A DNA stretch of 64,000 nucleotides from Croceimicrobium hydrocarbonivorans (lineage in GTDB: Bacteria > Bacteroidota > Bacteroidia > Flavobacteriales > Schleiferiaceae): assembly GCF_014524565.1 (NCBI RefSeq), contig NZ_CP060139.1:1061501-1125500 (forward strand), in the 5' to 3' direction. The notes under the pieces were generated by a model that worked only from the letters and a program-made list of their open reading frames with translations, searched no databases and was not told where the DNA came from. A program made the position numbers and the translations under genes. Positions 7,623-30,125 of this stretch are shown in pieces. Every line of letters begins with the position of its first letter. The first letter of the stretch is position 1.

Positions 7623-9863
<2,241 letters not shown>

Positions 9864-11166: not shown

Positions 11167-11167
11167 T

Positions 11168-13293: not shown

Positions 13294-13301
13294 TCAGCTC
13301 T

Positions 13302-13338: not shown

Positions 13339-13349
13339 TAACAACAGAC

Positions 13350-14147: not shown

Positions 14148-14287
14148 TGATTTAACCATGAGAAGGATAGCATTCATCTCCCTTAGATATCCATCCTCTC
14201 TTCAAATAATCGACAGTCTAAGCGGAAGCCCATTGAAGGTACTTTTTAGACGAGATAGTTCAGCAAATAACACTTTAACTCATCAAT

Positions 14288-15118: not shown

Positions 15119-15190
15119 AGAAATTGATTCAGACCTACTCTTAAAAAACGACAAGCTTCCACTTTTCATGCCTTCAGCATTTCCATTTCA

Positions 15191-15886
15191 TCAATTATTG
15201 CTCATAACATTAGCAAGCTCATACAAGACTAAAAACAGGCGCTGTTTTTTAGCATCCAATTCTTGAAACTCTGAATTACGAAAATCCCTTAAGCCCGGCT
15301 TGCGATCTTTTGCTTCTATTCGACCGATTTGGAATTGACCATCCTGCCAAAGAATCACTTTTTTATTCATGCTTACCGGCCACTCCTTTTTATCCTCTAT
15401 CTCTCTTACGATGAGTAAATCCAGAACGCGTCCCTGCTCATTAATCCAGGGCAAACCCGCATGAGGCTCAAAGGCCAGGTAATCTGACTTCAAAGCTGGC
15501 AGCGGCAAGCTTAGCTTTAAATAATGGTCCAGACTTTTTCCTTCGAAATAGTCATTGCGCTTTTCAGAGCTAATATAATAAACCGGACTAAAACTCAAGG
15601 GCATTTTTTTAGGACGTAATTGATTGCCATTGCTTTTTACATAGTCCTTTTTAAAGATGTCGAAATGAAAAAGATCGTTTACCGAAAGCTCCTTATTTAG
15701 CAAATCATCAGTTGAAATACCAAAATGCTTAGCAATTTCCATCAAAGTAGCAATCTTTGGCTCTGCCCTTCCTTCTTCATAAGCACCGATACTAGCCCGT
15801 TTCAAATCGAACAAATCAGCAAACTGACTCTGATTCATGTTTTTAACCGAACGTATCTTTTTAATATTCTTTCCAACGTATGACAT
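15191..15886 (-). CDS. XRE-family transcriptional regulator with degenerate S24/LexA-like C-terminus
   Basis: 231 residues. Residues about 5-62 form an XRE helix-turn-helix (GKNIKKIRSVKNMNQSQFADLF, then RASIGAYEEGRAEPK). The C-terminal half resembles the LexA/S24 fold in layout (FEPHAGLPWINEQGRVLDLLIVREI, then VILWQDGQFQIGRIE), but the position of the nucleophilic Ser in the usual G-D-S-M motif is not Ser, so self-cleavage is unlikely. It is divergent from the PspA/flotillin operon with an 81-bp gap holding back-to-back promoters, which makes it the likely regulator of that operon and of itself. Confidence 0.85.
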   Translation of the reverse strand: MSYVGKNIKKIRSVKNMNQSQFADLFDLKRASIGAYEEGRAEPKIATLMEIAKHFGISTDDLLNKELSVNDLFHFDIFKKDYVKSNGNQLRPKKMPLSFSPVYYISSEKRNDYFEGKSLDHYLKLSLPLPALKSDYLAFEPHAGLPWINEQGRVLDLLIVREIEDKKEWPVSMNKKVILWQDGQFQIGRIEAKDRKPGLRDFRNSEFQELDAKKQRLFLVLYELANVMSNN

Positions 15887-15890
15887 ATCC

Positions 15891-15921
15891 CAAAAATATT
15901 TTTGCTAATTCTTTTGGCAAA
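15891..15921 (-). promoter_or_regulatory. Promoter of the XRE gene, predicted leaderless transcript
   Basis: On the minus strand TTTG (15921-15918), a 19-bp spacer and TATTTTTG (15898-15891) match the Bacteroidota primary promoter exactly. The -7 box ends only four bases before the ATG (15886), so transcription would start at or next to the start codon. It overlaps the plus-strand promoter head to head. Confidence 0.65.
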
Positions 15922-15933
15922 ACTAAAAATATT
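15895..15933. promoter_or_regulatory. Inverted repeat, candidate operator for the XRE regulator
   Basis: AATATTTTT (15895-15903) and AAAAATATT (15925-15933) are exact inverted 9-mers enclosing both -33 boxes and covering the -7 box of the XRE promoter. A dimeric XRE protein bound here would block both promoters. Inferred from position and symmetry only. Confidence 0.45.
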
Positions 15934-15943
15934 AGTAGCTTAG
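15913..15943 (+). promoter_or_regulatory. Promoter of the PspA/flotillin operon
   Basis: TTTG (15913-15916), a 19-bp spacer and TAGCTTAG (15936-15943; one mismatch to TAnnTTTG) lie 24 bases upstream of the first ATG (15968). The -33 box abuts that of the opposite promoter around TTTTGGCAAAA. Confidence 0.6.
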
Positions 15944-15967
15944 CAGTGTAAAACTAAAAATAATAAC

Positions 15968-16081
15968 ATGAAAAGTGTGCTCTTCCTTTGGAAACGCCTT
16001 TTTGCCCCGGAGAAAAAACCTAATTTGGTACCTATCTACGCTAAGCAAGAATCGCAAAAAATCAAATTTCTGAAACCATGA
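15968..16081 (+). CDS. 37-residue microprotein leading the PspA/flotillin operon
   Basis: ATG 15968 to TGA 16081 encodes MKSVLFLWKRLFAPEKKPNL plus 17 more residues ending KIKFLKP. It is hydrophobic/amphipathic at the N-terminus and strongly basic overall (about ten Lys/Arg), which suggests association with the inner face of the membrane. Its stop overlaps the ATG of the next gene (ATGA), a coupling arrangement that argues for real translation. It is the first frame after the predicted promoter. It could also be only a leader frame that couples translation. No family recognised. Confidence 0.55.
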   Translation: MKSVLFLWKRLFAPEKKPNLVPIYAKQESQKIKFLKP

Positions 16082-16473
16082 CCCATCACTTTGATCGAGT
16101 AAAAAACTACCTCATTGATCTGGACTACAACATTACTTACGAGAACGCCGAGGAGGAGGTTTTCGTAGTGGAATATCCAGATGCTGGAATATACAACCTG
16201 GTGATTGCTGTCGCCGACCCGATTCTCATCATGGAACAATTCCTTTTCGAATTGAAAGAGGGCAAACCGGAAGTCTTTCGCAAGCTTTTGGAAAAGAACC
16301 GCGACATCGTTCACGGTGCTTTCGCCCTCGATGAGACGGGGACTAGAGTGGTGTTTAGGGACACCTTACAATTGGAAAACATTGACCTGAACGAGATCGA
16401 GGGCTCGGTAAACTCCCTAGAACTGCTCCTCAGTGAGTATTCTGATGAATTAATTGAATTTTCTAAAAACTAA
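16078..16473 (+). CDS. YbjN/DUF2170 (YjfI)-like protein
   Basis: 131 residues, cytoplasmic, acidic. The sequence pattern (VFVVEYPDAGIYNLVIAVADP, HGAFALDETGTRVVFRDTLQ, LNEIEGSVNSLELLLSEY) fits the small type-III-chaperone-like fold of the YbjN and DUF2170 families. In Escherichia coli a DUF2170 gene (yjfI) immediately precedes a pspA paralogue (yjfJ). Here the next gene, three bases downstream, is also pspA-like, so the pairing is conserved. Its likely role is as a partner or chaperone for PspA or for membrane components, which is inferred. Confidence 0.72.
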   Translation: MTHHFDRVKNYLIDLDYNITYENAEEEVFVVEYPDAGIYNLVIAVADPILIMEQFLFELKEGKPEVFRKLLEKNRDIVHGAFALDETGTRVVFRDTLQLENIDLNEIEGSVNSLELLLSEYSDELIEFSKN

Positions 16474-16476
16474 GAC

Positions 16477-17220
16477 ATGAGTATTTTCAAACGACTTTTC
16501 AGCATCGGTAAAGCAGAAGCTAATTCGGCCCTCGACAAATTAGAGGACCCCATTAAAATGACCGAACAAGGGATTCGCGATCTTAAAGTAGATCTCGATA
16601 AAGCCCTGCAATCTTTAGCCGAAATTAAGGCTCTTAGCATTCGTGCCCGCAACGACTCTAATACCTATCAGGCCAAAGCCAAAGACTACGAAAACAAAGC
16701 CATCGCCCTTTTACGCAAGGTTGAAAACGGTGAAATGGAAAGCAGCGAAGCCGACCGTTTAGCCGGTGAAGCCCTGAACAAGAAAAAGGAGAACGAAGCC
16801 TTGATGAATCAAGCGAAAGCTGACAAGGAAAAGTTCGATGGAAACATTGACTCCATGGACAGCAAGATCAAACGTCTTCGCCAGCAAATCAGTCAGTATG
16901 AAAACGAACTCAAAACCCTGAAAGCGCGGGTGAAAGTAAGTTCTGCTACTAAGAATATCAATAAGCAAATGGCTCAAATCGATTCTTCGAGCACCGTAAG
17001 CTTGCTAGAACGCATGAAAGACAAAGTAGCTGAAGAAGAAGCCCTGGCCGAAAGCTATGGCGACATTGCCAACGAAAGTCGCAGCCTCGACGAAGAGATC
17101 GATCGCGCCTTGGAAGACAGTGGCTCTGCCAGTGAAGATTTAGCTGCTTTAAAAGCAAAAATGGGTCTTAATAAAGACGCAAATCCAGAAGGCGAAGGCG
17201 AAGCCAAAGACCCGCAATAA
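16477..17220 (+). CDS. pspA: PspA/IM30-family membrane-maintenance protein
   Basis: 247 residues, almost entirely helical coiled coil. The start MSIFKRLFSIGKAEANSALDKLEDP matches the amphipathic helix 0/1 region of PspA/IM30 proteins (usually M-x-I-F-x-R, then an E-D-P motif). Long heptad stretches follow (residues about 30-190), then an acidic tail. Family members polymerise into ESCRT-III-like rods on damaged inner membranes and keep them sealed. Here it sits in an operon with flotillin, an NfeD/YqiJ-like protein and an AAA ATPase rather than with PspBC/PspF, so control is probably by the XRE protein and not by PspF. Confidence 0.92.
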   Translation: MSIFKRLFSIGKAEANSALDKLEDPIKMTEQGIRDLKVDLDKALQSLAEIKALSIRARNDSNTYQAKAKDYENKAIALLRKVENGEMESSEADRLAGEALNKKKENEALMNQAKADKEKFDGNIDSMDSKIKRLRQQISQYENELKTLKARVKVSSATKNINKQMAQIDSSSTVSLLERMKDKVAEEEALAESYGDIANESRSLDEEIDRALEDSGSASEDLAALKAKMGLNKDANPEGEGEAKDPQ

Positions 17221-17229
17221 AATTAAACC

Positions 17230-17877
17230 ATGACCGACTTCCTCAACCAAATATTTAATGGAGCCAATGCCATCCCCACGGCATTGCTCCTCTTCGTGAT
17301 CCTCTATTGGATTATCGTAATCCTGGGCTTTATCGGCACCGACTTTCTGGATATAGATCTGGATATCGATGTCGATGGTGAAGCCGAACTGGATGTAGAT
17401 GGCGAAGGAATGGAAGTCTCATGGATTAACAATGTTCTCCAGTTCTTCAACCTGGGTAAAATCCCACTGATGATCTGGCTAACCTTCGTAGCCCTACCCT
17501 TATGGTTTATTGCTGTGAACCTCAATCATTTCTTGGGCTTCGAAGGTTTTTTAAGCGGCATATTGATCTTCCTGCCCTCCGCTTTCGTGAGCCTGTTCTT
17601 CGCCAAATTCGCCACCTGGCCTTTCGTGAAGATGTTTGAAAAGCTTGACGCAGATTCAAAGCCCAAAGAAATTGAAGGCAAAACCGGAACTGTAACCAGC
17701 TCTGCCAGCGCTAGCAGCAAAGGCATGGCCGAAATAAATTACGACGGCACTTTCCTGCGCTTAATGATCCGCTGCCACGAAGGTCAAAATGTAAAAAAAG
17801 GCGATAAAGTCCTCTTTATCCGCAAACTAGACGAACGTGGAGTTTATCTAGTAGAACCCTATTCTTCAATCGATTAA
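17230..17877 (+). CDS. YqiJ/NfeD-like OB-fold membrane protein, flotillin partner
   Basis: 215 residues. Membrane segments lie at about 17-37, 77-98 and 105-127. An acidic, repetitive loop (DIDLDIDVDGEAELDVDGEG, residues about 40-60) follows the first segment. The C-terminus (IEGKTGTVTSSASAS to DKVLFIRKLDERGVYLVEPY) is the small OB fold of the NfeD/YqiJ type. Such genes almost always sit directly before a flotillin, as here (12-base gap), and form a membrane complex with it. The Asp-rich loop may bind cations. Confidence 0.85.
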   Translation: MTDFLNQIFNGANAIPTALLLFVILYWIIVILGFIGTDFLDIDLDIDVDGEAELDVDGEGMEVSWINNVLQFFNLGKIPLMIWLTFVALPLWFIAVNLNHFLGFEGFLSGILIFLPSAFVSLFFAKFATWPFVKMFEKLDADSKPKEIEGKTGTVTSSASASSKGMAEINYDGTFLRLMIRCHEGQNVKKGDKVLFIRKLDERGVYLVEPYSSID

Positions 17878-17889
17878 TCAACAAACTCT

Positions 17890-20061
17890 ATGGATTTTTT
17901 CCAAACCACTCTGGCGGTCCCAATCATCATGGGCGTATTGCTCATCCTTGGAATCATCGCATTTCTCTCTAGATTTTATCATAAAACATCTCAAGGCCAA
18001 GCCCTCGTTAAAACAGGTGTAGGTGGAATCAAAGTCAACTTTAATAGCATGTTGGTGATCCCCGTGCTGCATAAGGTTGAGATTATGGACATTTCCCTCA
18101 ACACCATCACTATAGAAAGAAGAGGGAAGGATGGCTTGGTATGTAAAGACAACCTGCGGGCCGACATTAGCGTAGCCTTTTACGTGCGGGTAAATGAAAT
18201 GCAGGAAGATGTAAAGCGCGTAGCCCAATCGGTTGGATGCAGCCGCGCCTCTTCCAAAGATGCCCTGCGCTTGCTCTTCGACGCCAAATTCTCTGAAGCC
18301 CTGAAAACAGTAGGTAAGAAATTCGATTTCGTTGACCTCTATAATCAGCGGGATGAATTTCGCAAAGAGATTATCGACATTATCGGCACCGACCTTAATG
18401 GTTACATCTTGGATGATGCCGCCATCGACTTTTTGGAACAAACTCCATTAGAGTCTTTAGATCCCAACAATATTCTCGATGCCGAGGGTATCAAAAAGAT
18501 TACTGAAATCACGGCTCGTGAAGCAGTGAAATCGAACTTCATCTTAAGAGATAAGGAGAAAACCATCAAGCAACAAGATGTGGAGGCCCGTGAGGCGGTA
18601 TTGGTTCTGGAACGTCAATTAGCCGAATCGGAAGAAAAGCAAAAACGAGAAGTTGCCAATATCCGAGCCCGTGAAGGAGCGGAAATTCTCAGAGTTAATG
18701 AAGAAGAACGTCTTAAATCAGAACGAGCTCGCATTACTACCGAAGAAGAATTACAAGTTGCGGAAGAAAACAAATTACGCCAGGTAATTGTAGCCGCTAA
18801 AAACAAAGAGCGCACTGAGGCTATTGAAAATGAGCGCGTAGAGAAAGATCGCCAGTTAGAGGCCACCGAGCGTGAGCGTATCGTAACCCTCACTCAAATT
18901 GAGAAGGAAAAAGCGATTGAGCACGAGCGCAAGAACATCCAAGAAGTGATCCGTGAGCGTGTTGCCATCGAGAAAACCGTGGTGGATGAAGAAGAGCGCA
19001 TCAAAGACACTCGTGCTTATGCCGAAGCGGAACGTCTGAAAAAAGTAGCCTTAACGGAAGCTGAGCAACGTGCCGAAGCCGCCCTGGTGGAAGAAATCAA
19101 GCGTGCCGAGGCCGCCAAGCAATCCGCTGAGTTTAATGCCAAGCGCATGATCATCGACGCGGAAGCCGAACAGCAAAGTGCCAGCCAAAAAGCTGAAGCG
19201 GTGAAAGTACTGGCCGAAGCCGAAGCTGCCCGCGAAGCCGCTAAAGGAATGGCCGAAGCCCAAGTTATGGAAGCCAAAGCTGCCGCTCGTGAGAAGCAAG
19301 GGGAAGCGGAAGCCAGCGTACTCGAAGATCAAGCATTAGCTGAAGCCAAAGGAATTGAAGCTAAATCTAACGCTCAAGCCGAAGCCGACCTCCGTATTGG
19401 TAATGCTGCAGCAGAAGTAAATAAAGCTCGTGGTTTGGCCGAAGCCGAAGTTATTCGCAAGAAGGCTGAAGCCGATAAAGAGAAAGGCCTGGCCGACGCT
19501 CAGGTACTCTTCGAAAAAGCACAAGCTGAAGCTGAAGGTATCGATCGCAAAGCCAAGGCCATGAAGACCTTTAACGAGGCCGGTAAAGAGCACGAAGAAT
19601 TCAAATTGCGCTTGGATAAAGACCTGCAAATTGAATTGGCCGGCATTAATATCCAACGCGATATCGCCGATGCTCAAGCCGAAGTACTTTCGGAAGCACT
19701 TAAAAATGCCAAGATCGACATTGTGGGTGGCGAGCAAGTATTCTTCGATAAGATTGTAGGTGCTATTACCCAAGGTAAATCGATGGACCGCACCGTGTAC
19801 AACAGTGACATTTTCACGGAACTAAAAGGACAATTATTGGATCCCAATGGCAAGAGCCTTTTACAACAGGTAAAAGAAATCTTCCAAGACTCCAATTTGA
19901 AAAGCGACGACATCCGTAATTTATCGGTAGCGGTATTCCTGAACCGCCTGATGTCGCAAACCGAAGACCCGGTGAAGCGCAGTAACCTGCAACAAATGTT
20001 GCAACTCGCTAAAAGCTCCGGAATTGGCAACAATTCTGTTCAAGACCTGGGAATTCTCTAA
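17890..20061 (+). CDS. Flotillin-like SPFH/Band-7 protein (YqiK type)
   Basis: 723 residues. An N-terminal membrane segment (about 8-28) is followed by an SPFH/Band-7 domain (about 30-200; KVEIMDISLNTITIERRGKD, DLRADISVAFYVRV-like strands) and a very long coiled coil with dense Ala-Glu repeats (about 215-590, for example AEAEAAREAAKGMAEAQ). A C-terminal globular tail (GGEQVFFDKIVGAITQGKS) matches the flotillin end. It assembles membrane microdomains and cages. It is longer than B. subtilis FloT, close to YqiK-type proteins. The preceding YqiJ-like gene is its usual partner. A GC-rich hairpin separates it from the ATPase gene. Confidence 0.93.
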   Translation: MDFFQTTLAVPIIMGVLLILGIIAFLSRFYHKTSQGQALVKTGVGGIKVNFNSMLVIPVLHKVEIMDISLNTITIERRGKDGLVCKDNLRADISVAFYVRVNEMQEDVKRVAQSVGCSRASSKDALRLLFDAKFSEALKTVGKKFDFVDLYNQRDEFRKEIIDIIGTDLNGYILDDAAIDFLEQTPLESLDPNNILDAEGIKKITEITAREAVKSNFILRDKEKTIKQQDVEAREAVLVLERQLAESEEKQKREVANIRAREGAEILRVNEEERLKSERARITTEEELQVAEENKLRQVIVAAKNKERTEAIENERVEKDRQLEATERERIVTLTQIEKEKAIEHERKNIQEVIRERVAIEKTVVDEEERIKDTRAYAEAERLKKVALTEAEQRAEAALVEEIKRAEAAKQSAEFNAKRMIIDAEAEQQSASQKAEAVKVLAEAEAAREAAKGMAEAQVMEAKAAAREKQGEAEASVLEDQALAEAKGIEAKSNAQAEADLRIGNAAAEVNKARGLAEAEVIRKKAEADKEKGLADAQVLFEKAQAEAEGIDRKAKAMKTFNEAGKEHEEFKLRLDKDLQIELAGINIQRDIADAQAEVLSEALKNAKIDIVGGEQVFFDKIVGAITQGKSMDRTVYNSDIFTELKGQLLDPNGKSLLQQVKEIFQDSNLKSDDIRNLSVAVFLNRLMSQTEDPVKRSNLQQMLQLAKSSGIGNNSVQDLGIL

Positions 20062-20073
20062 AAACAAACAAAG

Positions 20074-20096
20074 GGGGCGAGCCTAAGCCTCGCCCC
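20074..20096 (+). terminator. GC-rich hairpin inside the operon, probable attenuator
   Basis: GGGGCGAG (20074-20081) and CTCGCCCC (20089-20096) form an 8-bp stem with a 7-base loop, followed by the AT-rich TAATTATTTT. It lies between flotillin and the ATPase gene. With an imperfect T tract it probably reduces, rather than stops, transcription into the large ATPase gene, or stabilises the upstream mRNA end. Confidence 0.6.
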
Positions 20097-20110
20097 TAAT
20101 TATTTTCTGA

Positions 20111-23100
20111 ATGCCTGAAATCAACCCTACATCTGATTCTAAAGAACCCGGCCTGGAGGCAGGCAGCTACAGCATTATTCGCGAGCGTCTGCAAAAGCAG
20201 GGTAAAGACTTACAGCAAAGGCTCAACCAGCTAAACAGCGAGCGCCGGGAAGTATTTGGCGCCACCGAAACCAAGCTGATCGCCAATGAGCGTATCAGCA
20301 CCGAGAACAACTGTTTGGCCCGCGACATTGTGCCGGTCGGTGAAGACTTCTTTTGGTTCGGTTATAATGTGCAAATCGGCCTGAAAGCCGAAACCAAGAT
20401 TTCTGATGTATTTAGCGTGTATCGCTACGACCGCAAAGAACATCGCTTTCAAAGCGCTGATGCAGATGCCTTTGCCAATGAACAGTTTCAGATAGATTTC
20501 CAAAACCTGTATCAATATTACCGCGAAACTCGCTTCAGCAAATTCGCGCTTATCGGCCCTCACCTCTTTATGGTATTCCAAGTGGGGAAAAGCACAGCCG
20601 ATATCAAAACCTTTAAGTGGAGCCTTAAAAACGGTCGCTATGTATACGTTGATAATCGCAGCGATCACGAATTCCATTTTCCCGATCAGCATGAATTCCG
20701 CTGGACCAAAGTAAACCGCGACATGCACCGCAAGGGCCTGCATCCGCACATTTCCATTGCCGATCGTCTTTTTGTAGAAACCATCGGTGGCGACCTTACC
20801 CTAAAGGTGGAAGACAATACCAATACCGGCAAGGGCATTTATAGCGAGGCCGTAGACAATGCAGATCAAACCCTGGATGATGCGGAAATTTTCTATGCCG
20901 AAATTGGCAACCTCATCATCTTAAAAGTACAGCCCTACCAAGAGGAGAAATTCCGTTACCTGATCTATAATGAGAAAATACAGGCGGCCAAACGGGTAGA
21001 TGCCATTAAGGACTCCTGCGTATTACTCCCCGAAGATCAGGGACTCATCTTCGCCAAGGGATATTATATCCAGAGTGGTGAGGTGAAATTATTCGATAAT
21101 GAGCTGCAAAATATGCAGTTCGAAAAACGCATTAAATCGCCCAATGGCGAAGATGTGCTCTATGTTTTCTATCAGGCCGAAACCGGCACCTATGCCTTAA
21201 TGCGCTATAACCTGATAGAACAAGAAGTGGGCACCCCCATTATTTGCAGTGGCTACAGCCTCTTCGAAGATGGCGAACTTATTTACTTCCGGGCCGAAGC
21301 CGAGCAAAGCAAACACCACTTGATACAAATTTGGCAAACGCCATTTTATTCGCCCAACCGCCAAACTCAGGTATCCGACCAAAGCTATATCGCCAAGGTT
21401 GGCAATAAAGAAATTGTAAGGGCCATGTCCGAGGCTCGCGACTTATTAAAGTTGGTTTACAAGGGCGATAGCTATCAAAACCTCTACAGCGACATCACCA
21501 AAAAATCGGGCGACATCCTCGATGCCTACCACTGGTTAGGCGCAGAGGAAACCTATAAACTGGAAGAGCCCCTTTTGCAGATTCGTCAAACCGCCAAAAG
21601 CGCCATTGATGAGTACGAAAAAGTGCTTCAATTACGTCGTGAAAGTGAGGCCGAGTTTTTGGCTTTCGCCGATGCGTCTACAGCGCAGTTAAAAGGCCTG
21701 AAAGCAGGCTTAGGTAATCATATTGATGAGTACGTAAAGCGCATGGCCGAGCTCCGCCACAGTCGGGGTCAGGTATTGAAGCTACAAGAACTCCCTTATA
21801 TAGACCTCGAAGGCTTAAAGGACCTGGAAGCACAATTGATTGAAGCCTCCGAAAAACTCGCCTCCGAAACCGCCAGCTTTCTGGTAAAGGACAAAGCTTT
21901 GGATCCCTATCGCGAGAAGCTACAAAACCTTCAAAAGCAATCGGAGGAACTCAAGAAATCGATCGAGGCTAAAAAGCTGGAGGAGGAAAGCCTGAAGTTA
22001 TCGCAGGAGTTGGAGATGCTTATCGAAACTGTGAGCAATCTGCAAATTGAGGACGCCACCCAAAGCACCGCCATCATTGATCGCATTTCGGAACTCTATG
22101 CCGAATTCAATCAGGCGAAAGCCCATATTAAGCAAAAGCGTAAAAGCCTGGTTCAAACCGAAGGGGCCAGTGAGTTTAAAGCTCAACTGCGTTTAATTGA
22201 CCAAAGTTTAAGCAACTACCTAGAGCTGGCGGATGAGCCTGAGAAATGCGACAGCTACCTCAATAAACTGATGATTCAGTTAGAGGAATTGGAAAGTCGC
22301 TTTTCAGAATCCGAAGAGTTTTTGGAGCAAATCAGCAGCTTACGCGATGAAATTTACAACACCTTCGAAAGTCGGAAAGTACAGCTCAAGGAAGCCAAAA
22401 ATCGCAAAGCCCTAAAACTTAGTGATGCCGGAAAACGCATTCTGGAAGGCATAGACCGCCGCATGCAGCACATGAACAGCAGCGAAGAAATTCAGGCCTA
22501 TTACGCTTCGGATTTCATGGTGCTCAAATTGCGCGATCAGGCCAAAGCCCTTTTAGAACTAGGTGAATCTGTTAAGGCCGACGAATTAGAGAGCCTGCTT
22601 AAATCGACCTACGAAGAGGCATTACGTCAATTAAAAGACAAGCAAGAGCTCTATGCCGATGGCGACCAATTAATCCAATTGGGTAAACATCGCTTTAGCA
22701 TCAACCATCAAGATATAGACCTTTCCTTGGTGCAACGCAATGAAGCGCTGTTCCTGCACATTAATGGCACTGGCTTTTTTGAAGAAATCCAAAACCCGGA
22801 TCTGGATGCTTGCCGCCCAGTTTGGAATCAAGCTGTACGCAGTGAAAACGAGCAGATCTATCGCGCCGAATATCTGGCCTACAGCCTATTCCAACAAGCT
22901 TTAGAACAAAAGGAATTAGACATTCAGCATTTAAAAACCCTGAGTCCAAAAGAATTAAAAGAGATTGTTCAAGCCAGCTTAAGTCAGCGCTTCCAGGAAG
23001 CCTATGTTAAAGGGGTTCACGATGAAGATGCCACCTTAATTCTGGATGCACTTTTGAAATTGCACTTCAATTTGGGCGCCCTTCGTTACAGCTCCAAAGC

Positions 23101-25057
23101 TCGATTATGGGCGCTATATGCTTGGGACAAATCCTGGACAACCGAAACCAAAAAGGCTCTGCAAGAAGACTTTGAACACATTCGAAGCATATTGCAATTT
23201 TTCTCTGCCAGCCAGAGCTTCCAGAGCAGCATGGCAGAGCTTAAAAATTTACTGAAACAGGAAAGTGAAATCGCCAGCTTCTTAAATACGGATGAAGGCG
23301 ACCTGGATGAAGCCACTGCCTTTTTATTCGATTGGTTAGCCCAAAGAGAAAAAATCAGCTTCAAAAAAGAAGCGCGCGAATTAGCAGAACAATTCACCCA
23401 AGCCCTGAAGCGCAGTAACGCCCTCAAGAATTTCGAGGCTGCGAGCAAAGTGAAGCCTAATGAAAATTGGCTACGTGCCAGTCAGCGTATCCACAGCTGG
23501 TTAAAAGCCTTTGTTCAGGAGAGTCCTCTAAAACCAAGCGCGGAGGTAGAGTTGGAAACCTGCTATTTATTGGGCCTTAATAAGCTGGAGCAAGAGCAAG
23601 GTCATGTATTAATTAGTAAAGTAGAACTAGAAGGACTCCGTGGCGATCATGCTCGAATTAATGATGGCAAGCTGAATTTAGATTATCTGGATCTTAAAAA
23701 CCGAATGCAGGCCTTTATCGGCGAAAGCCAGCCTTTATTCGATCGCTACCAAAAACTGAAAAAAGAGATCCTGAACCAGGAGCGTAAAAACATGGGGCTC
23801 AATGAGTTTAAACCTCGCATTATGAGCTCTTTTGTGCGCAATGAACTACTGGATGAAGTGTACCTTCCCTTGATAGGTGATAACCTGGCTAAACAAATTG
23901 GCGCGGCGGGTAAAGACAAACGCACCGACCTTATGGGCATGCTGCTTTTAATCTCGCCTCCTGGCTATGGTAAAACCACTTTGATGGAATACATCGCCGC
24001 TCGCTTAGGATTGGTTTTCATGAAAATCAATGGGCCAGCACTCGGACATTCGGTAACCAGCGTTGACCCCGAAAGTGCACCTAATGCCGGAGCTAGAGAA
24101 GAGCTTTACAAATTGAACCTAGCATTCGAAATGGGCGACAATGTGATGATCTATCTTGACGACATCCAACATTGTAATCCAGAGTTTTTGCAAAAGTTTA
24201 TCTCCCTTTGTGATGCCCAGCGTAAAATTGAAGGAGTGTATAAAGGAGAGGCTAAAACCTATGATTTCCGCGGCAAGAAAGTAGCGGTGATCATGGCAGG
24301 AAACCCTTATACCGAGAGTGGCGAGAAATTCCAAATTCCGGATATGTTAGCCAACCGGGCCGACATCTACAATTTGGGAGACATCATTGGCGGAAAAGCC
24401 GAGGCCTTCGAATTAAGCTATATCGAGAATGCCCTGAGTTCCAATCGGGCTTTAGCCGCCCTAAGCGACAAACCTCGTCAGGATTTAAAGAGCTTTATCC
24501 GCTCCATTGAAAATGAAAATCCTGAAAGCCTGGAATTAGAGGCGAACTACAGTGCTACCGAAAAGGAAGAAGTGCTCCGTATTTTGGAGCTGAGCTATCA
24601 GATCCGTAAAATTGTACTGGAGGTCAATAAACAATATATACTTTCAGCCGGTCAGGCGGAAGCCTTTAGAACCGAACCTCCCTTTAAGTTGCAAGGTTCC
24701 TATCGGGACATGAATAAACTATGCGAGAAGCTGAGTCCTCTGATGAATAATTCGGAGTTAGAGCAAATCCTGCTTTCGCATTATGAGAATGAGTCGCAAA
24801 CCCTTACTCAGGGTGCCGAATTCAACTTCCTCCGCCTGAAGCAAATGCTCGGAAAGATCGAAGAGGAGGAGCAATCGCGACTGAATGAAATTATTAAGGT
24901 TTTCCGCAAGCAGCAGGAAGCCAAGGGCTACGGCTCCAATCAAGTAGCCCCCATTGTGGAAAGATTGGAGCAAATGGGGCTGGGATTGCAGGACTTGGTT
25001 CGCATCTTCGCCCAGGAACGAAAACTAAAAGAAAACAATAGCAATGAGCCTATTTAA
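20111..25057 (+). CDS. Giant AAA ATPase of the DUF3686 type
   Basis: 1648 residues, cytoplasmic. Residues about 80-470 are a beta-rich, propeller-like region; 490-900 are long coiled coils (SEELKKSIEAKKLEEESLKL); 900-1230 are helical. The C-terminal AAA domain has a Walker A at about 1281-1290 (SPPGYGKTTLMEY) and a Walker B at about 1345 (MIYLDDIQH), with a sensor-like GNPYTESGEKFQIP and an arginine finger candidate in LANRADIY. This matches proteins named DNA-repair ATPase/DUF3686, whose annotation is by weak similarity only; DNA repair is not supported here. Next to PspA and flotillin, a role in remodelling a membrane assembly is more plausible. Its stop overlaps the next gene by 14 bases. 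Confidence 0.88.
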   Translation: MPEINPTSDSKEPGLEAGSYSIIRERLQKQGKDLQQRLNQLNSERREVFGATETKLIANERISTENNCLARDIVPVGEDFFWFGYNVQIGLKAETKISDVFSVYRYDRKEHRFQSADADAFANEQFQIDFQNLYQYYRETRFSKFALIGPHLFMVFQVGKSTADIKTFKWSLKNGRYVYVDNRSDHEFHFPDQHEFRWTKVNRDMHRKGLHPHISIADRLFVETIGGDLTLKVEDNTNTGKGIYSEAVDNADQTLDDAEIFYAEIGNLIILKVQPYQEEKFRYLIYNEKIQAAKRVDAIKDSCVLLPEDQGLIFAKGYYIQSGEVKLFDNELQNMQFEKRIKSPNGEDVLYVFYQAETGTYALMRYNLIEQEVGTPIICSGYSLFEDGELIYFRAEAEQSKHHLIQIWQTPFYSPNRQTQVSDQSYIAKVGNKEIVRAMSEARDLLKLVYKGDSYQNLYSDITKKSGDILDAYHWLGAEETYKLEEPLLQIRQTAKSAIDEYEKVLQLRRESEAEFLAFADASTAQLKGLKAGLGNHIDEYVKRMAELRHSRGQVLKLQELPYIDLEGLKDLEAQLIEASEKLASETASFLVKDKALDPYREKLQNLQKQSEELKKSIEAKKLEEESLKLSQELEMLIETVSNLQIEDATQSTAIIDRISELYAEFNQAKAHIKQKRKSLVQTEGASEFKAQLRLIDQSLSNYLELADEPEKCDSYLNKLMIQLEELESRFSESEEFLEQISSLRDEIYNTFESRKVQLKEAKNRKALKLSDAGKRILEGIDRRMQHMNSSEEIQAYYASDFMVLKLRDQAKALLELGESVKADELESLLKSTYEEALRQLKDKQELYADGDQLIQLGKHRFSINHQDIDLSLVQRNEALFLHINGTGFFEEIQNPDLDACRPVWNQAVRSENEQIYRAEYLAYSLFQQALEQKELDIQHLKTLSPKELKEIVQASLSQRFQEAYVKGVHDEDATLILDALLKLHFNLGALRYSSKARLWALYAWDKSWTTETKKALQEDFEHIRSILQFFSASQSFQSSMAELKNLLKQESEIASFLNTDEGDLDEATAFLFDWLAQREKISFKKEARELAEQFTQALKRSNALKNFEAASKVKPNENWLRASQRIHSWLKAFVQESPLKPSAEVELETCYLLGLNKLEQEQGHVLISKVELEGLRGDHARINDGKLNLDYLDLKNRMQAFIGESQPLFDRYQKLKKEILNQERKNMGLNEFKPRIMSSFVRNELLDEVYLPLIGDNLAKQIGAAGKDKRTDLMGMLLLISPPGYGKTTLMEYIAARLGLVFMKINGPALGHSVTSVDPESAPNAGAREELYKLNLAFEMGDNVMIYLDDIQHCNPEFLQKFISLCDAQRKIEGVYKGEAKTYDFRGKKVAVIMAGNPYTESGEKFQIPDMLANRADIYNLGDIIGGKAEAFELSYIENALSSNRALAALSDKPRQDLKSFIRSIENENPESLELEANYSATEKEEVLRILELSYQIRKIVLEVNKQYILSAGQAEAFRTEPPFKLQGSYRDMNKLCEKLSPLMNNSELEQILLSHYENESQTLTQGAEFNFLRLKQMLGKIEEEEQSRLNEIIKVFRKQQEAKGYGSNQVAPIVERLEQMGLGLQDLVRIFAQERKLKENNSNEPI

Positions 25058-25592
25058 AAATCTCTTTGGTGGCAAGAAGGAAGATCCCAAGCCCTTTAGC
25101 CGCACGCCCATGGACCTGGATCTGGGCTATATCTTCGAGTACGATATGCAATCTTGGGAAGTAATGGCAGTCTACGAATACGACTGGGGTGATGAGGATT
25201 TCAGTAAGGAATTCAAGGTTAGTGACGGTCAAAACACCTATTACTTATCGGTAGAAGAAGATGATGAAATTGAAATGACCTGGTCAAAGAAAATCCCTCT
25301 ACGCTCTATCGAAGGCCCTATCGCCCAGCAGATTGAAGAGGATGAACGTCCGCCCGAAACCATCGTTTACGAATCGCGCACCTATTATCTAGATGAAGAA
25401 AGTGCCGGTTATTTCCACGAAAAAGGCAGCGATGAAAATGCCTGGGCCGAATTTATGGTTTGGGATTATTACGATAAGAAAGAAGAATATCAACTCAGCA
25501 TCGAACAATGGGGACCACGTTCCTTTGAAGCTTCCCACGGCAAGGTGCTGAAGAACCACGAGATATCCGACATTTTACCTCGAGAACAATGA
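25044..25592 (+). CDS. DUF4178 domain protein
   Basis: 182 residues, acidic, cytoplasmic. After a basic N-terminal patch (MSLFKNLFGGKKEDP) two DUF4178-like units follow: LGYIFEYDMQSWEVMAVYEY, and a second from TYYLDEESAGYFHEK to YQLSIEQWGPRSFEASHGK. DUF4178 is repeatedly found beside PspA, DUF350 and AdoMet decarboxylase genes and is of unknown biochemical function. It overlaps the ATPase gene by 14 bases and the lipoprotein gene by four (ATGA), so synthesis of all three is coupled. The N-terminus F-K-N-L-F-G is like that of PspA-type proteins and could touch the membrane. Confidence 0.78.
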   Translation: MSLFKNLFGGKKEDPKPFSRTPMDLDLGYIFEYDMQSWEVMAVYEYDWGDEDFSKEFKVSDGQNTYYLSVEEDDEIEMTWSKKIPLRSIEGPIAQQIEEDERPPETIVYESRTYYLDEESAGYFHEKGSDENAWAEFMVWDYYDKKEEYQLSIEQWGPRSFEASHGKVLKNHEISDILPREQ

Positions 25593-26362
25593 TTATGAAA
25601 CAGTTCTATCGCGCATTAGGCCTGGGGGCATTGGTCCTGCTTATTCAGGCTTGTACTTCACAAGGACCAAGCTTCCGGAAGAATCCGGTTGACGACCTGA
25701 TCAAGGACATGACTGAGGTTCCTGACTTCAGCATTATCCTCTACGATATGAATTTCGATGAGCAGTCGGAACAATATCAACATCAATATCGCATCCTTAA
25801 GGAGCCTCAGGGTTCTGACAGCATTCTCAGCGAAACCACCGGATGGCTGCAAGTAAGCCCCGAGTATTTCAATGAGCAGGTGGATAATATGGGGATGACG
25901 ATAGTTTCTAAAACCAATGGAACGGTGGACAAAAAAGTAAGTCCACCCGGATATAACCAATATGTAGGCAATGAAAAATACGGACAATGGCGCCAACAAT
26001 CGGATGGCAGCAGCTTTTGGGAGTTTTACGGAAAGTACGCCTTCCTCCGCAGTGTTCTGGGTTTTGGCTACTCTCCTATTTACTACGGGGGTTGGTACGA
26101 TTACCGTCGCAACTATTACCCCTACGGACGCACCTATTACGGTACCACTAGCAGTGGAAGAGGCAACCGATTTGGAACTACCGGCAGCCACAACAGCAGC
26201 CGAAGCACCGCTTCGACCTGGAACAGTAAAGACCAAAGTTTCAAAAACAGAGTCCGCAGCCGGGTACAAAGAAGTGCCAGCCGCAGTAGAACCAACCGCA
26301 GTGGATCGCGCTACCGGAGTGGATCCAGCAGCCGTGGACGTGGATTTGGAGGAGGTAAATAA
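25589..26362 (+). CDS. Lipoprotein with Arg/Ser/Gly-rich tail
   Basis: 257 residues (or 255 from the second ATG at 25595). Lipoprotein signal ALGLGALVLLIQACTSQ, Cys near residue 22. The middle holds a Tyr/Gly patch (YSPIYYGGWYDYRRNYYPYG). The last 90 residues are low-complexity, strongly basic Ser/Arg/Gly (RSRVQRSASRSRTNRSGSRY and on to RGFGGGK). Such a tail in the periplasm could bind lipid headgroups, peptidoglycan or polyanions. E. coli yjfM (DUF1190) is a comparable lipoprotein in the yjf operon, but homology is not shown. It overlaps DUF4178 by four bases. Confidence 0.75.
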   Translation: MIMKQFYRALGLGALVLLIQACTSQGPSFRKNPVDDLIKDMTEVPDFSIILYDMNFDEQSEQYQHQYRILKEPQGSDSILSETTGWLQVSPEYFNEQVDNMGMTIVSKTNGTVDKKVSPPGYNQYVGNEKYGQWRQQSDGSSFWEFYGKYAFLRSVLGFGYSPIYYGGWYDYRRNYYPYGRTYYGTTSSGRGNRFGTTGSHNSSRSTASTWNSKDQSFKNRVRSRVQRSASRSRTNRSGSRYRSGSSSRGRGFGGGK

Positions 26363-26379
26363 GCTAAAAAAGGAAAGAC

Positions 26380-27261
26380 ATGACTACAGAGATATTAGCA
26401 AACGAATGGATGAACGATCTCCTTCTCTTTGGCATTTATTTGGCAAGTTCCCTAATCCTCCTCTACCTTGGTAAATGGGTCTTTAAGTGGACTAAATCCT
26501 CCATTAAAGTTAGAGAAGAACTGGTAGAAAAAGATAACCTCGCTTTTAGCTTTGCTTATACCGGCTATTTCGCAGGTTTACTTATGGCGGTTGGCTCGGC
26601 GATTTATGGCGAATCCAACGGACTGTTGATCGACCTCGAAGACATGGCGATTTATGGCATCCTGGCCATTATACTGCTCAACCTTTCCTCCTTGATTATC
26701 GACCACATCAATTTGCGTCGCTTTTCGATATGGAAGGAGATTACCGTAGACCGTAATGCCGGCATGGGTATTATCGAAGGAGCTAATTACCTCGCCTCGG
26801 GCTTGATCATTTTCGGTGCCATTACTGGCGAAAGTGGCGGCTTGGCCTTCGGGATTTACACCGCTATTGCCTACTGGGCTTTAGGTCAGATCCTGATCGT
26901 TATCGCCACCGCACTATACGATCGCTTAATGCCTTATTCCCTCCACGATGAAATCGAAAAGGATAATAATGCTGCTGGTGTGGCTTTCGCCGGATTAATT
27001 ATCGCGGTAGCCAATTTAATTCGCCACGGCTTAATGGGAAATTTCGAAAGTTGGGATCAAACTCTCTTAGAGGTAGCTTATGAAACCGGAATTGGATTAG
27101 TGATATTACCCCTTATCCGCACTTTAGTGGATCGCATTTTACTGCCCGGCCGAAAGCTAAGTGACGAAATTGCCGCTCAAGAAAAACCCAATGTGGGTGC
27201 CGGCTTAATTGAGGCCTTTGGCTATATCGGAGGATCCGTACTCATTATTTGGTGCATCTAA
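26380..27261 (+). CDS. DUF350 membrane protein (YjfL-like), two repeats
   Basis: 293 residues with about eight membrane segments arranged as two similar halves (FAYTGYFAGLLMAVGSAIYG and VAFAGLIIAVANLIRHGLMG-like units, each with the F/L-A-x-T/A-G motif typical of DUF350). E. coli yjfL, one repeat, lies in the operon with a pspA paralogue. Function is unknown; a channel or transporter has been proposed from its fold. It overlaps nothing, and the next gene starts one base after its stop. Confidence 0.85.
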   Translation: MTTEILANEWMNDLLLFGIYLASSLILLYLGKWVFKWTKSSIKVREELVEKDNLAFSFAYTGYFAGLLMAVGSAIYGESNGLLIDLEDMAIYGILAIILLNLSSLIIDHINLRRFSIWKEITVDRNAGMGIIEGANYLASGLIIFGAITGESGGLAFGIYTAIAYWALGQILIVIATALYDRLMPYSLHDEIEKDNNAAGVAFAGLIIAVANLIRHGLMGNFESWDQTLLEVAYETGIGLVILPLIRTLVDRILLPGRKLSDEIAAQEKPNVGAGLIEAFGYIGGSVLIIWCI

Positions 27262-27262
27262 A

Positions 27263-28810
27263 GTGAAAAACCGCCGCTCCCCCTTTTTGAAATTAGCCCT
27301 GTTCGCCACCGGATTATCCGGAATTGTAGCGGAGTACATTTTATCCACTCTGGCTACTTATTTTATTGGCGATTCGGCGGTGCAATGGTCCCTCATTGTA
27401 TCGGTGATGCTCTTTTCAATGGGCTTGGGTTCCCGCATCAGTAAATACCTGGAAGGCAATTTGCTGATCAAATTTATTGGAGTGGAATTCGCATTAAGCT
27501 TGTTGGTATCCTTCTCCTCCCTCATAGCTTACTCTGCCGCCGGATTTACAGACTATGTAGGCCTAATCATTTATGGGATGAGCATCTTGATCGGCTTATT
27601 AATTGGTCTGGAAATCCCCTTGGTGATACGCCTCAATGAAGAGTTTGAAAGCCTGAAGGTGAATATCGCCTCAGTGATGGAAAAGGATTACCTCGGCTCT
27701 CTCGTGGGAGGATTATTCTTTGCCTTTGTAGGATTACCCATCTTAGGCCTTACCTATACTCCCTTTATTTTGGGATTCATCAATTTATTGGTTGCGGTGG
27801 GATTGTTTATCACCGTAAGGCGTGAATTGGGCTCCAAGTTTAATGCCCGCATCACAATTAGCTCCGGCATTATTATTTTGGTGATGTTTGGCGGAATTAC
27901 TCAGGCACAGGATATCATTTTTTTTGGGGAGCAAAAACGATATAAGGATAAGGTAGTCTTCTCTGCCCAAAGCAAGTATCAAAAAATAGTAATGACCCAA
28001 TGGAAGGATCATTACTGGCTTTACCTCAATGGCAATCAGCAATTGAGCACCTTAGATGAAGACAAATACCACGAGGCATTAGTCCACCCAGCCATGAAGC
28101 TTAGTCATGAAGTACAGGATGTATTAATCCTTGGTGGTGGCGATGGTTGCGCTGCGCGGGAGGTCTTAAAATACCCCTCGGTAAAAAGTATTACGGTGGT
28201 AGATTTAGATTCGATGATGACGGGATTAGCCACGCGACATCCGATCTTGAAAGAACTAAACGAGGCTTCTTTCTCTAACCCTAAAGTGAAGGTATTAAAT
28301 GCCGATGCCTTTACCTGGCTGGAGAACAGCAATGCTTTTTTTGATGTGATCATGATTGACCTCCCCGATCCGCGATCGGTAGAACTAAATCGCATGTATA
28401 CAGAGGAGTTTTACCGAATCTGTAATCTGAAGCTACGGCCACATGGCGTATTAATCACTCAGGCGGGCAGTCCTTATTTCGCGACCAAAGCCTTTAAATG
28501 CATTGATAAAAGCATGATGGCTGCCGGCTTCGAAACCCTCCCCTTGCATAACCATGTAATTACCTTGGGAGAATGGGGCTGGGTATTGGGTCAAAAGCAA
28601 GATTGGACTCAAGGTGAATTAAAACAGCGGGCGCGGGGTTTAAGATTTGAGGATATTGACACCCGTTGGTTAAACAATGAGGCCATGTTGATGATGAGCG
28701 CCTTTGGCAAGGAAATTTATTTTGAGGTGAAAGACAGTATTGAGATAAACCACATTCAGGATCCAGTGCTGTATCGCTATTATTTAAAAGGAAATTGGGA
28801 CTTATATTAA
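27263..28810 (+). CDS. speE: Membrane-anchored spermidine synthase (SpeE-like)
   Basis: 515 residues from GTG 27263, one base after the DUF350 stop. An upstream ATG (27209) would overlap DUF350 by over 50 bases, and its translation looks like shadow sequence. Seven or so membrane segments fill residues 1-225. The C-terminal half is the polyamine synthase fold: LILGGGDGCAARE (decarboxylated-AdoMet site), VVDLD, DAFTWLE and DVIMIDLPDP with the catalytic Asp. Family enzymes transfer an aminopropyl group to putrescine or a related amine. The adjacent gene supplies decarboxylated AdoMet. Anchoring it in the membrane suggests a product used at the membrane. Confidence 0.9.
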   Translation: MKNRRSPFLKLALFATGLSGIVAEYILSTLATYFIGDSAVQWSLIVSVMLFSMGLGSRISKYLEGNLLIKFIGVEFALSLLVSFSSLIAYSAAGFTDYVGLIIYGMSILIGLLIGLEIPLVIRLNEEFESLKVNIASVMEKDYLGSLVGGLFFAFVGLPILGLTYTPFILGFINLLVAVGLFITVRRELGSKFNARITISSGIIILVMFGGITQAQDIIFFGEQKRYKDKVVFSAQSKYQKIVMTQWKDHYWLYLNGNQQLSTLDEDKYHEALVHPAMKLSHEVQDVLILGGGDGCAAREVLKYPSVKSITVVDLDSMMTGLATRHPILKELNEASFSNPKVKVLNADAFTWLENSNAFFDVIMIDLPDPRSVELNRMYTEEFYRICNLKLRPHGVLITQAGSPYFATKAFKCIDKSMMAAGFETLPLHNHVITLGEWGWVLGQKQDWTQGELKQRARGLRFEDIDTRWLNNEAMLMMSAFGKEIYFEVKDSIEINHIQDPVLYRYYLKGNWDLY

Positions 28811-28811
28811 G

Positions 28812-29132
28812 ATGGAAGAAACGAAGATTTACAACTTCCGCTTTTGGATAAAGCTCAAGGATGAAAAGGAAATTAGTCCACTCTTGGAAAAAATGCTCCG
28901 AGAGGCTGGTTATGGCATCGTAGGCTTTGTGGAGCACCACTTTCAGCCTCAAGGCTATACCTGCACCTGGCTGTTAAGCGAAAGTCATTGTGCCCTGCAT
29001 ACCTTCCCAGAAGAAGGTCGGTCCTACGTAGAACTCAGCGGATGTTCAGAGGAAAAAAGTCAACACTTTATTGATGCCACTTTTAAGCTTTGGAAAGATT
29101 ATATTCGCCTACACGACCAATCCAAATGCTAA
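28812..29132 (+). CDS. speD: S-adenosylmethionine decarboxylase proenzyme (SpeD/SpeH type)
   Basis: 106 residues, short class 1b type. Glu57-Ser58 is the predicted self-cleavage site that makes the pyruvoyl group, with His63 and Cys78 at the spacing of the well-studied bacterial enzyme (Ser +5 and +20): SESHCALHTFPEEG, ELSGCS. The enzyme makes decarboxylated AdoMet, the aminopropyl donor for spermidine synthase. It starts one base after the synthase stop, and its own stop abuts the ATG of the peptidase gene. Confidence 0.93.
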   Translation: MEETKIYNFRFWIKLKDEKEISPLLEKMLREAGYGIVGFVEHHFQPQGYTCTWLLSESHCALHTFPEEGRSYVELSGCSEEKSQHFIDATFKLWKDYIRLHDQSKC

Positions 29133-30125
29133 ATGAAGGGAAGCCATTTACTAACCTGCCTCGCATTAATTCTTAGCAGCTGGGCATCAGCGCAGCAATA
29201 TTCCATCATCATACACGGAGGTGCCGGAAACGGCCTCAAACCCGAAAACTACACTGAAGTCCAAAAAGCAGCCTTTCATGCGGGATTAAACCGCGCATTG
29301 GCAGTTGGCGACTCAGCCTTAAATGCGGGCACTGCCGGACCAGAAGTCGTTAGCCTGGTTTTACAGGTTTTAGAAAATGACACTTTATTTAATGCCGGTC
29401 GTGGAGCGGTATTAACCTACGAGGGCAAAGCCTCCATGGATGCCTCTATTATGGATGGCGCCAGCGGAGAAGCCGGAGCAGTTGCGGGTATCTCTTGCAT
29501 TAAAAATCCCATCACTGCAGCCTTGGCGGTTTTGCGCTATTCGGATCATGTATTATTAAGTGGCTCGGGGGCCGATGATTTTGCGCAACTCCATGGAGGA
29601 ATTTGCGTAGATCCGAATTACTTTCTTATTAATAGTAATCTTAAAGTACTCCGCAAAATTCGTGGTGATCAAGGTGCATTGGATAGCCTCATTGACCATA
29701 AAATGGGAACGGTTGGTTGCGTAGTTCGCGATCGTGAGGGAAATATAGCAGCAGGCACTTCCACCGGAGGCTTAATGGCCAAAAAATACGGACGTATTGG
29801 CGACTCTCCCATCATTGGCGCCGGCACCTATGCTGATAATGCTTCGGTTGGAGTAAGCTGCACCGGTCATGGCGAGTACTTTATCCGTAATGTGATTGCC
29901 TACCAATTAGCCGCCCGTTATTTGTATTTGAAGGAAGGCGGACAGGAAGCGGCGGATTATATGATCCACGATTTACTGAGCGGGCAAAAGGCTTTTGGGG
30001 GCTTGATCGGCATTGATGCCAAGGGTGAATTCTTCTATGCCTTTAATACTGTGGGGATGTTACGTGGCTTTAAGCGCGAAGGAGAAGCGGCACAAACCTA
30101 TATTTTCGATTTACAGGAAAGATAA
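29133..30125 (+). CDS. Periplasmic isoaspartyl peptidase/L-asparaginase (Ntn hydrolase)
   Basis: 330 residues. A signal peptide (LLTCLALILSSWASAQ) is followed by the type-2 asparaginase fold (IHGGAGNGLKPEN, NAGRGAVLTYEGKASMDASI). Autoproteolysis is predicted just before Thr193 in HKMGTVGCVV, followed by GNIAAGTSTGGLMAKKYGRIGDSPIIGAGTY. It removes isoaspartyl or beta-aspartyl groups from peptides, or asparagine. The gene is adjacent to speD without a gap (TAAATG) and is likely in the same transcript. Membership may be functional or by chance. A tRNA-Val with its own promoter follows. Confidence 0.9.
   Translation: MKGSHLLTCLALILSSWASAQQYSIIIHGGAGNGLKPENYTEVQKAAFHAGLNRALAVGDSALNAGTAGPEVVSLVLQVLENDTLFNAGRGAVLTYEGKASMDASIMDGASGEAGAVAGISCIKNPITAALAVLRYSDHVLLSGSGADDFAQLHGGICVDPNYFLINSNLKVLRKIRGDQGALDSLIDHKMGTVGCVVRDREGNIAAGTSTGGLMAKKYGRIGDSPIIGAGTYADNASVGVSCTGHGEYFIRNVIAYQLAARYLYLKEGGQEAADYMIHDLLSGQKAFGGLIGIDAKGEFFYAFNTVGMLRGFKREGEAAQTYIFDLQER

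Follow-up and report, generated by a model that had tools for sequence, protein, structure and literature searches.

We analyzed a 64,000-nucleotide (nt) stretch of DNA from Croceimicrobium hydrocarbonivorans (contig NZ_CP060139.1, positions 1,061,501 to 1,125,500; referred to as the window) that carries genes for PspA and its putative partners. Ten full-length genes and a leader open reading frame (ORF) of 37 amino acids (aa) form a plus-strand row between window positions 15969 and 29132 (Table 1). The host genome is a single contig of 4.04 Mb, and its nearest named records, among the matches listed, belong to the Flavobacteriales. Gene calls and family searches matched the eleven same-strand genes and the family assignments that had been proposed earlier from the DNA letters (hereafter, the original prediction). 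The row is part of a larger locus, to which a divergent XRE-type gene upstream and an Asparaginase_2 gene downstream belong; both had been missed.

Table 1. Features of the locus (window coordinates; HTH, helix-turn-helix; AdoMet, S-adenosylmethionine)
Feature	Position	Strand	Basis or remark
XRE/Cro-type HTH regulator gene, 231 aa	15191..15886	-	HTH_3 E 9.8e-11
Double palindrome RCTAA-N5-TTRGY x2, 3 bp apart	15904..15936	.	putative XRE operator in common promoter region
Leader ORF, 37 aa	15969..16079	+	overlaps start of CesT-type gene
CesT/Tir-YbjN-type chaperone-like protein (CesT_Tir_1)	16078..16473	+	PF22550 E 9.3e-54
PspA/IM30, YjfJ-type	16477..17220	+	PF04012 E 1.5e-41; 25% identity to E. 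coli YjfJ
YqiJ/NfeD-like membrane protein	17230..17877	+	PF21001 22.3 bits, E 1.5e-4; E. coli YqiJ match
Flotillin-like (YqiK-type) membrane protein, 723 aa	17890..20061	+	E. coli YqiK similarity
Terminator-like or attenuator hairpin	20073..20097	+	GC-rich, 9-bp stem, inside 49-bp flotillin-ATPase gap
AAA+ ATPase, 1648 aa	20111..25057	+	N-terminal DUF3686 E 8.5e-189, DUF7902, C-terminal AAA_5 E 6.9e-7
DUF4178 protein	25044..25592	+	PF13785 E 1.6e-23
Lipoprotein, Arg/Ser/Gly-rich tail	25589..26362	+	lipobox Cys22, composition
Double DUF350 (YjfL-like) membrane protein	26380..27261	+	PF03994 E 4.8e-53, two stretches; 8 hydrophobic segments
Membrane protein fused to SpeE aminopropyltransferase domain	27209..28810	+	PRK03612 568 bits (cut-off 472); hydrophobic N-terminal part
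SpeD, class 1b AdoMet decarboxylase	28812..29132	+	PF02675 E 5.7e-16
Asparaginase_2 (isoaspartyl peptidase-type)	29133..30125	+	PF01112 E 1.8e-90; abuts SpeD, zero gap

PspA was the sole PF04012 match in the genome in a profile search. The YqiJ-like protein scored just below the PF21001 cut-off (22.3 vs. 23 bits) and matched E. coli YqiJ (25% identity, E 6e-9). The flotillin-like protein aligned with E. coli YqiK over 450 columns (32% identity, E 3e-49); the flotillin Pfam family was not matched in the scan of window proteins. SpeD remained below the NCBIfam TIGR03330 cut-off (51.7 vs. 75.65). Because most relatives of the SpeE fusion in the genus are 513 to 515 aa long, its true start is probably near position 27263 and not at the TTG at 27209. 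The genes are spaced mostly as originally predicted (0 to 12 bases or overlaps), with gaps of 3, 9, 12, 17, and 1 bp or overlaps, but flotillin and ATPase genes are separated by 49 bp containing a hairpin.

The row combines two gene sets, termed here module A (CesT-PspA, YqiJ, flotillin, and beta-propeller AAA+ ATPase) and module B (CesT-PspA, DUF4178, lipoprotein, DUF350, and membrane-SpeE). At this locus, A and B are contiguous around one common CesT-PspA pair, and SpeD is added. Both halves are described in the text of Ravi et al. 2024 (PMC11237479), where they form two distinct groups that share this dyad and are called overlapping. As given there, group 1 (CesT/Tir-PspA, YqiJ/YuaF, band-7/flotillin, and an AAA+ protein with coiled coil and beta-propeller) matches the first five full-length genes here: the CesT/Tir-PspA dyad is adjacent, YqiJ stands beside flotillin, and the AAA+ protein has a propeller-like DUF3686 part. 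In contrast to that group, module B and SpeD follow here and a divergent XRE gene precedes. The Shewanella-type group 2 of the same text (CesT/Tir-PspA, DUF4178, lipoprotein, DUF350 with eight transmembrane segments [8TM], and a 7TM-spermidine-synthase fusion) has the membrane-SpeE fusion, DUF4178, and an eight-segment double DUF350 in common with the row here, along with a lipoprotein that may be of the same kind, but in the window a YqiJ-flotillin-ATPase cassette lies between PspA and DUF4178, and SpeD is adjacent.

Thus, the locus is mostly not new, both of its halves being already described in that text. The text of PMC11237479 contains no merged A+B operon and lacks the word XRE, and its figures or supplements may show the merger. 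No other paper describing the combination was found in the literature searched, which comprised few subscription papers. New here are (i) two groups of mergers together with the absence of the cassette from a congener, (ii) the XRE gene with its unique double motif, and (iii) the recurring hairpin.

Two further operons resemble the locus in part. The E. coli yjfIJKLMC operon shares a DUF2170/CesT-type protein (YjfI), a PspA paralogue (YjfJ), a DUF350 protein (YjfL), and a polyamine-related enzyme. In contrast to it, the genome analyzed here has no YjfC-type ATP-grasp ligase (glutathionylspermidine-synthase family PF03738, 0 matches; the E. coli control matched), and SpeE and SpeD are found instead; the yjf families DUF2491 and DUF1190 had no match in the operon proteins. 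According to PMC10948618, the P. aeruginosa bacABCDEF operon, demonstrated by reverse transcription-PCR, encodes BacA with a type III secretion chaperone/YbjN fold and the PspA-like BacB. It differs in its proposed sigma54 promoter, as compared to XRE here, and the sections covered report no SpeE or SpeD.

Conservation of the block was studied by tblastn with the window proteins, which can miss divergent copies. The original prediction had stated beforehand that it would fall if the genes did not co-occur in other genomes. The prediction withstood this check: our gene-neighborhood comparison showed all ten full-length genes standing side by side in six genus genomes, on one contig in G000 (the own genome), G002, G003, G004, and G006 and on two contigs in G001. 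Protein identity to the block in the five other genomes ranged from 59 to 99%. In every comparison that permitted an estimate, the ratio of nonsynonymous to synonymous substitution rates (dN/dS) was ≤0.26; many of the dS values were saturated. In four of the six other genus loci (L027, L164, L165, and L192), neither of the two upstream flanking genes tested lies next to the block, which is therefore not kept together by general synteny alone; this comparison covers the upstream side, downstream flanks being short in several genus loci. Judged from these alignments, the block is not a chance association.

The DUF3686 ATPase was detected in 8 of 296 phylum genomes and in 14 of 59 genomes of a set of relatives, the own genome being included in both. 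A SpeE fusion over the cut-off was present in 21/296 and 13/59 genomes, respectively, and nine more of the 59 had weaker matches only. ATPase neighborhoods were surveyed in the best 80 of at least 546 confirmed stretches, a choice biased to close relatives of the window ATPase. When more than 6 kb of upstream sequence was available (68 loci), YqiJ and flotillin each stood near the ATPase gene in 67 loci, PspA in 47, and CesT in 46.

Module B stands behind the ATPase gene in three of the surveyed loci: L027 of a genus member, L072 of Roseivirga UBA6061, and L077 of Fulvivirga. In addition, genes of module B adjoin A, differently oriented, in L057 (DUF350, lipoprotein, and DUF4178), L081 (SpeE), and L198 of genome G058. 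The group 2 set behind CesT-PspA stands in G005, G015, L153, and L154. In G005, which belongs to the same genus, the order is CesT-PspA-DUF4178-lipoprotein-DUF350-SpeE-SpeD without YqiJ, flotillin, and ATPase, and PspA and DUF4178 are 13 bp apart. G015, from the same family, has the same set without the cassette and with 54 bp at this junction. No DUF3686 match was obtained in either genome.

The history of the joining was inspected in trees from quick searches, with the Shimodaira-Hasegawa-like approximate likelihood ratio test (SH-aLRT) as the only branch support. The five genus rows whose ATPase is complete formed one starred clade in the ATPase tree, within family rows that have A only. 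Roseivirga and Fulvivirga formed a separate starred clade with A-only rows in between, amounting to at least two label changes. Because of this separation, the mergers of A and B appear, by parsimony, to have arisen at least twice. The SpeE tree, in which the two merger groups were again separate starred clades, leaves their mutual relation open and therefore is not sufficient on its own to establish two origins. G005 was sister to the other genus members in both the PspA tree and the SpeE tree, with G015 and the merged G006 outside. The PspA tree was built without rows shorter than 180 aa or with E >1e-25, which drops divergent Rufibacter copies, and L057 is labeled A in it, there being no SpeE within the available stretch. 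On the simplest reading, a module A operon present at the family level would have acquired B behind it, and G005 would later have lost the cassette; two gains would be a less simple alternative. As a separate observation, L198 (positions 5921-17534) contains two PspA genes, one of them very divergent, and two SpeE fusions, with A beside a complete B that carries a CesT-PspA pair of its own.

The divergent XRE gene accompanies the dyad, counted here as a match to CesT or to PspA. It was present in 46 of the 48 best-80 ATPase loci with such a match; the sequence of one of the two exceptions ends 86 bp upstream. In contrast, it was found in none of the 32 loci without the dyad, 20 of which have YqiJ and more than 2.5 kb before it. 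In all 62 loci measured, from named and unnamed records, the gene diverges from the dyad. This makes the XRE protein a candidate dedicated regulator of the locus. In many loci, its alignment is confined to the HTH part, and the remainder may be a variable sensor.

The intergenic region between the XRE gene and the row contains two RCTAA-N5-TTRGY palindromes. Searched with a spacer of 0 to 8, the double palindrome had a single exact match in the 4.04-Mb genome, and the reversed control had none. The strict single motif occurred in 22 of 62 XRE-dyad intergenic regions, with a maximum of 2 in mononucleotide shuffles, related loci being counted more than once. Bacteroidota promoters follow a TTG...TA-type consensus. 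The double palindrome would cover a putative promoter of this type, an overlap that suggests repression.

Hairpins of unrelated sequence were detected at the position between flotillin and ATPase in genus members and others. Our survey of 89 loci comprised 5 with a gap of <30 bp, too small for a hairpin, 31 with 30 to 200 bp, and 53 with a longer gap. Removal of five second copies of a genome from the middle class left 26 distinct genomes, among which a stem of 8 or more pairs was present in 22 and z was ≤ -2 relative to mononucleotide shuffles in 25. Among the longer gaps, such a stem was found within the first 100 bases in 45 of 53. No hairpin was seen in the short gaps of L031 and L060. Between positions 15800 and 30500, the total of terminator-like sites (23 vs. 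18.6 in shuffles; standard deviation, 4.8) was not above chance, nor were sigma-70-like sites in a consensus scan (14 vs. 21.5). The hairpin at 20073 thus rests on position and recurrence, not on the region-wide terminator scan. It resembles a terminator, an attenuator, or a site of processing that recurs among loci, and the ATPase and module B may be expressed at a lower or separately controlled level. Its recurrence after flotillin speaks against the originally predicted single operon and makes one full-length transcript doubtful.

An AlphaFold model of the DUF3686 part of the ATPase, computed with 16 sequences, had a predicted local distance difference test (pLDDT) score of 83 and a predicted template modeling (TM) score of 0.83. 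Its top PDB matches that could be identified by title were beta-propellers, mostly WD40. The global fit was loose (Foldseek TM score of ~0.3; best VIA match with Z 10.4 and a root mean square deviation of 5.3 Å over 198 residues). The model agrees with the beta-propeller assignment by Ravi et al. 2024. It gives no support to the Pfam label "ATPase involved in DNA repair", and no mention of DUF3686 was found in the full-text literature searched. For the lipoprotein, an alignment of 17 homologues revealed an invariant lipobox Cys22. It had no Pfam match, and its model (pLDDT of 64.7) gave no fold match at E 0.001 or better. From the invariant Cys22 and the gene position, it may be a lipoprotein of the "Ctha_1186" kind named for group 2.

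We then considered the chemistry of module B. The original prediction of a complete AdoMet decarboxylase agrees with the sequence of SpeD, which retains the processing Ser (ESH) and the catalytic His (LHTFPE) and Cys (LSGC), residues whose roles are given in PMC10407285. In an alignment of 15 rows, Ser and His were present in all and Cys in 14. SpeE, aligned with E. coli SpeE, retains GGGDG, both Asp of DxxDP (DLPDP), and the DExxYHE segment. In this distant alignment, it has His at the first Tyr of the E. coli PTYYGG motif and TQAG at AQNG. We take this Tyr to have an acceptor-site role in E. coli SpeE. Ten module B rows viewed had His (4), Gln (5), or Asn (1) at this position, and Tyr occurred in three rows that represent a distant fusion type. 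Among PDB sequences, SpeE best matches aminopropyltransferases; the four shown in full, one of them a thermospermine synthase, have Q-A-G or Q-T-G at the AQNG site.

Active aminopropyl transfer by SpeE is likely on this evidence. The original claim of a locally made polyamine is nevertheless unproven, because SpeE lacks the E. coli acceptor-site Tyr despite its intact catalytic and decarboxylated AdoMet (dcAdoMet) residues. Li et al. 2019 (Biochem J) reportedly found that fusions of this type fail to stand in for spermidine synthase in E. coli. Ravi et al., in the text of PMC11237479, cite that study for "aminopropylation of other substrates". Aminopropylation of a different amine may be considered equally likely. 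As we place the published motifs of PMC11107197, SpeE carries Asp in both motif 2 and motif 3, which fits neither a spermine synthase (Glu in motif 3) nor a usual thermospermine synthase (Glu in motif 2). Since spermidine and aminopropylagmatine synthases are indistinguishable by motifs according to the same source, the motifs permit no substrate call.

A second, more distant SpeE fusion cluster was seen in 12 phylum-sample loci (L136 to L147), with SpeD ~2.5 to 2.9 kb away. No DUF4178, lipoprotein, or DUF350 match was found there, except for a weak DUF350 match in L137. In the two rows viewed, L136 and L138, Tyr is kept at the PTYYGG position.

The most likely reading, to which we give about an even chance, is that the locus is an inducible envelope-stress unit that arose from two known PspA-linked operons joined around one CesT-PspA pair. 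We infer its functional steps as follows. The XRE protein would bind the double palindrome over the promoter and hold the operon low. Upon disturbance of the inner membrane, PspA, kept soluble by its CesT-like partner, would assemble on the damaged membrane, and YqiJ and flotillin would scaffold a microdomain at the damage site. The beta-propeller AAA+ ATPase, presumably made in a smaller amount owing to the hairpin before its gene, would remodel or recycle the PspA-flotillin assemblies. SpeD would make dcAdoMet at the same place, and the membrane-anchored SpeE would transfer an aminopropyl group to an amine, which could be a small polyamine, agmatine, or an amine associated with the membrane, altering charge at the envelope. 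DUF350, DUF4178, and the lipoprotein would be the membrane and outer-envelope partners of SpeE. The repeated joining of A and B suggests joint working, and the membrane-integrity setting that had been predicted originally agrees with the text of PMC11237479, in which ATP-dependent membrane remodeling for PspA-AAA+ pairs and a polyamine link were predicted. A bolder version, which we regard as quite improbable, is an XRE-switched machine whose PspA-flotillin patch is a platform for a membrane aminopropyltransferase modifying a lipid or an envelope protein, possibly its own Arg/Ser-rich lipoprotein. If true, this would be a new envelope aminopropylation coupled to ESCRT-III-like repair with its own AAA+ motor.

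Several results weigh against an envelope-stress unit of this composition. Module B followed the ATPase gene in only 3 of 68 best-80 loci with more than 4.5 kb of downstream sequence and was found anywhere in only 5 of 61 long ATPase loci. Genomes G143 and G047 carry both modules, located apart, and G005 and G015 demonstrate that the cassette can be absent while B remains. The hairpin suggests that the halves are expressed separately. XRE had no match in L152, L153, L154, and L198, where B has its own CesT-PspA pair, and the strict motif is missing in 40 of the 62 intergenic regions, including all Hymenobacteraceae rows and both Cytophagales mergers. Some of these points favor the view that A and B are independent PspA-linked operons joined by chance, which have the promoter and CesT-PspA in common and form no single machine: the modules are usually apart, B stands here without A in G005 and G015, many relatives have A without B, and a hairpin lies between flotillin and ATPase. 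In contrast, there are two merger groups and, besides them, three loci in which A and B are neighbors in a different orientation, and the merged block was retained through strong protein divergence in the genus; we consider chance joining unlikely. A defense system against phages with an XRE switch is highly improbable. It is brought to mind by the impression that an XRE gene, an ATPase, and membrane proteins resemble defense loci, but none of the ten operon proteins (XRE left out) had a convincing match in PADLOC. The matches obtained were coiled-coil hits for PspA, P-loop hits for the ATPase, and, for SpeE, a stretch of methyltransferase fold that hit mad2 (E 1.4e-16), and the orthologues are widespread and under purifying selection.

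The remaining alternative is metabolic: SpeD and SpeE would be the plain spermidine or aminopropylagmatine synthase system of the organism, placed beside an envelope operon, and the polyamine would act cell-wide. Such a role is possible because no convincing aminopropyltransferase besides SpeE was found in the genome, a further point against the envelope-stress unit; the other PF01564 match, a 219-aa protein, is weak (28.4 bits; Pfam cut-off, 22.9). The catalytic and dcAdoMet residues of SpeE are intact and PRK03612 is over the cut-off. Elsewhere in the genome, a second PF02784 decarboxylase (467 aa) adjoins a 283-aa ORF, and the two were read by eye as arginine decarboxylase and agmatinase. 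Carboxynorspermidine decarboxylase (NspC) is below the cut-off in this genome (best TIGR01047 score, 39.5 bits vs. 409; SpeD and homospermidine synthase were not searched for genome-wide). Against this stand the membrane fusion of SpeE, its retention with DUF350, DUF4178, the lipoprotein, and often PspA, the replaced Tyr in the ten module B rows, and the failure of such fusions to substitute for spermidine synthase, as reportedly found by Li et al. 2019. Moreover, among the 59 genomes of the relatives set (own genome included), SpeE fusions exceed the cut-off in 13 and NspC in none, and so many relatives seem to be without both. Taken together, we regard the metabolic explanation as somewhat unlikely. 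The triamine pathway was rejected as a discriminator: the 11 genomes with NspC over the cut-off and the 21 with a SpeE fusion, of 296, share none, which is uninformative because by our estimate ~0.8 shared genomes are expected by chance.

Two PspA-linked gene sets thus seem to be exchangeable loads of a single CesT-PspA pair; they are joined in two lineages and stand apart again within one genus. G005 and its congeners offer natural pairs with and without the cassette, together with a candidate regulator that has one predicted site. The aminopropyl acceptor and the role of the DUF3686 ATPase thereby become directly testable.

The borders of the row were also inspected. All seven genus genomes fetched have Asparaginase_2 next to SpeD, at most 81 bp away (in G006), and its co-transcription with the row in the genus is probable. 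In G015, it is detached from SpeD. At the upstream end, the N-terminal half of the leader ORF was recognizable in five of the six other genus loci, G006 being the exception, and the ORF is shortened to 29 aa in G001 and to 34 aa in L027.

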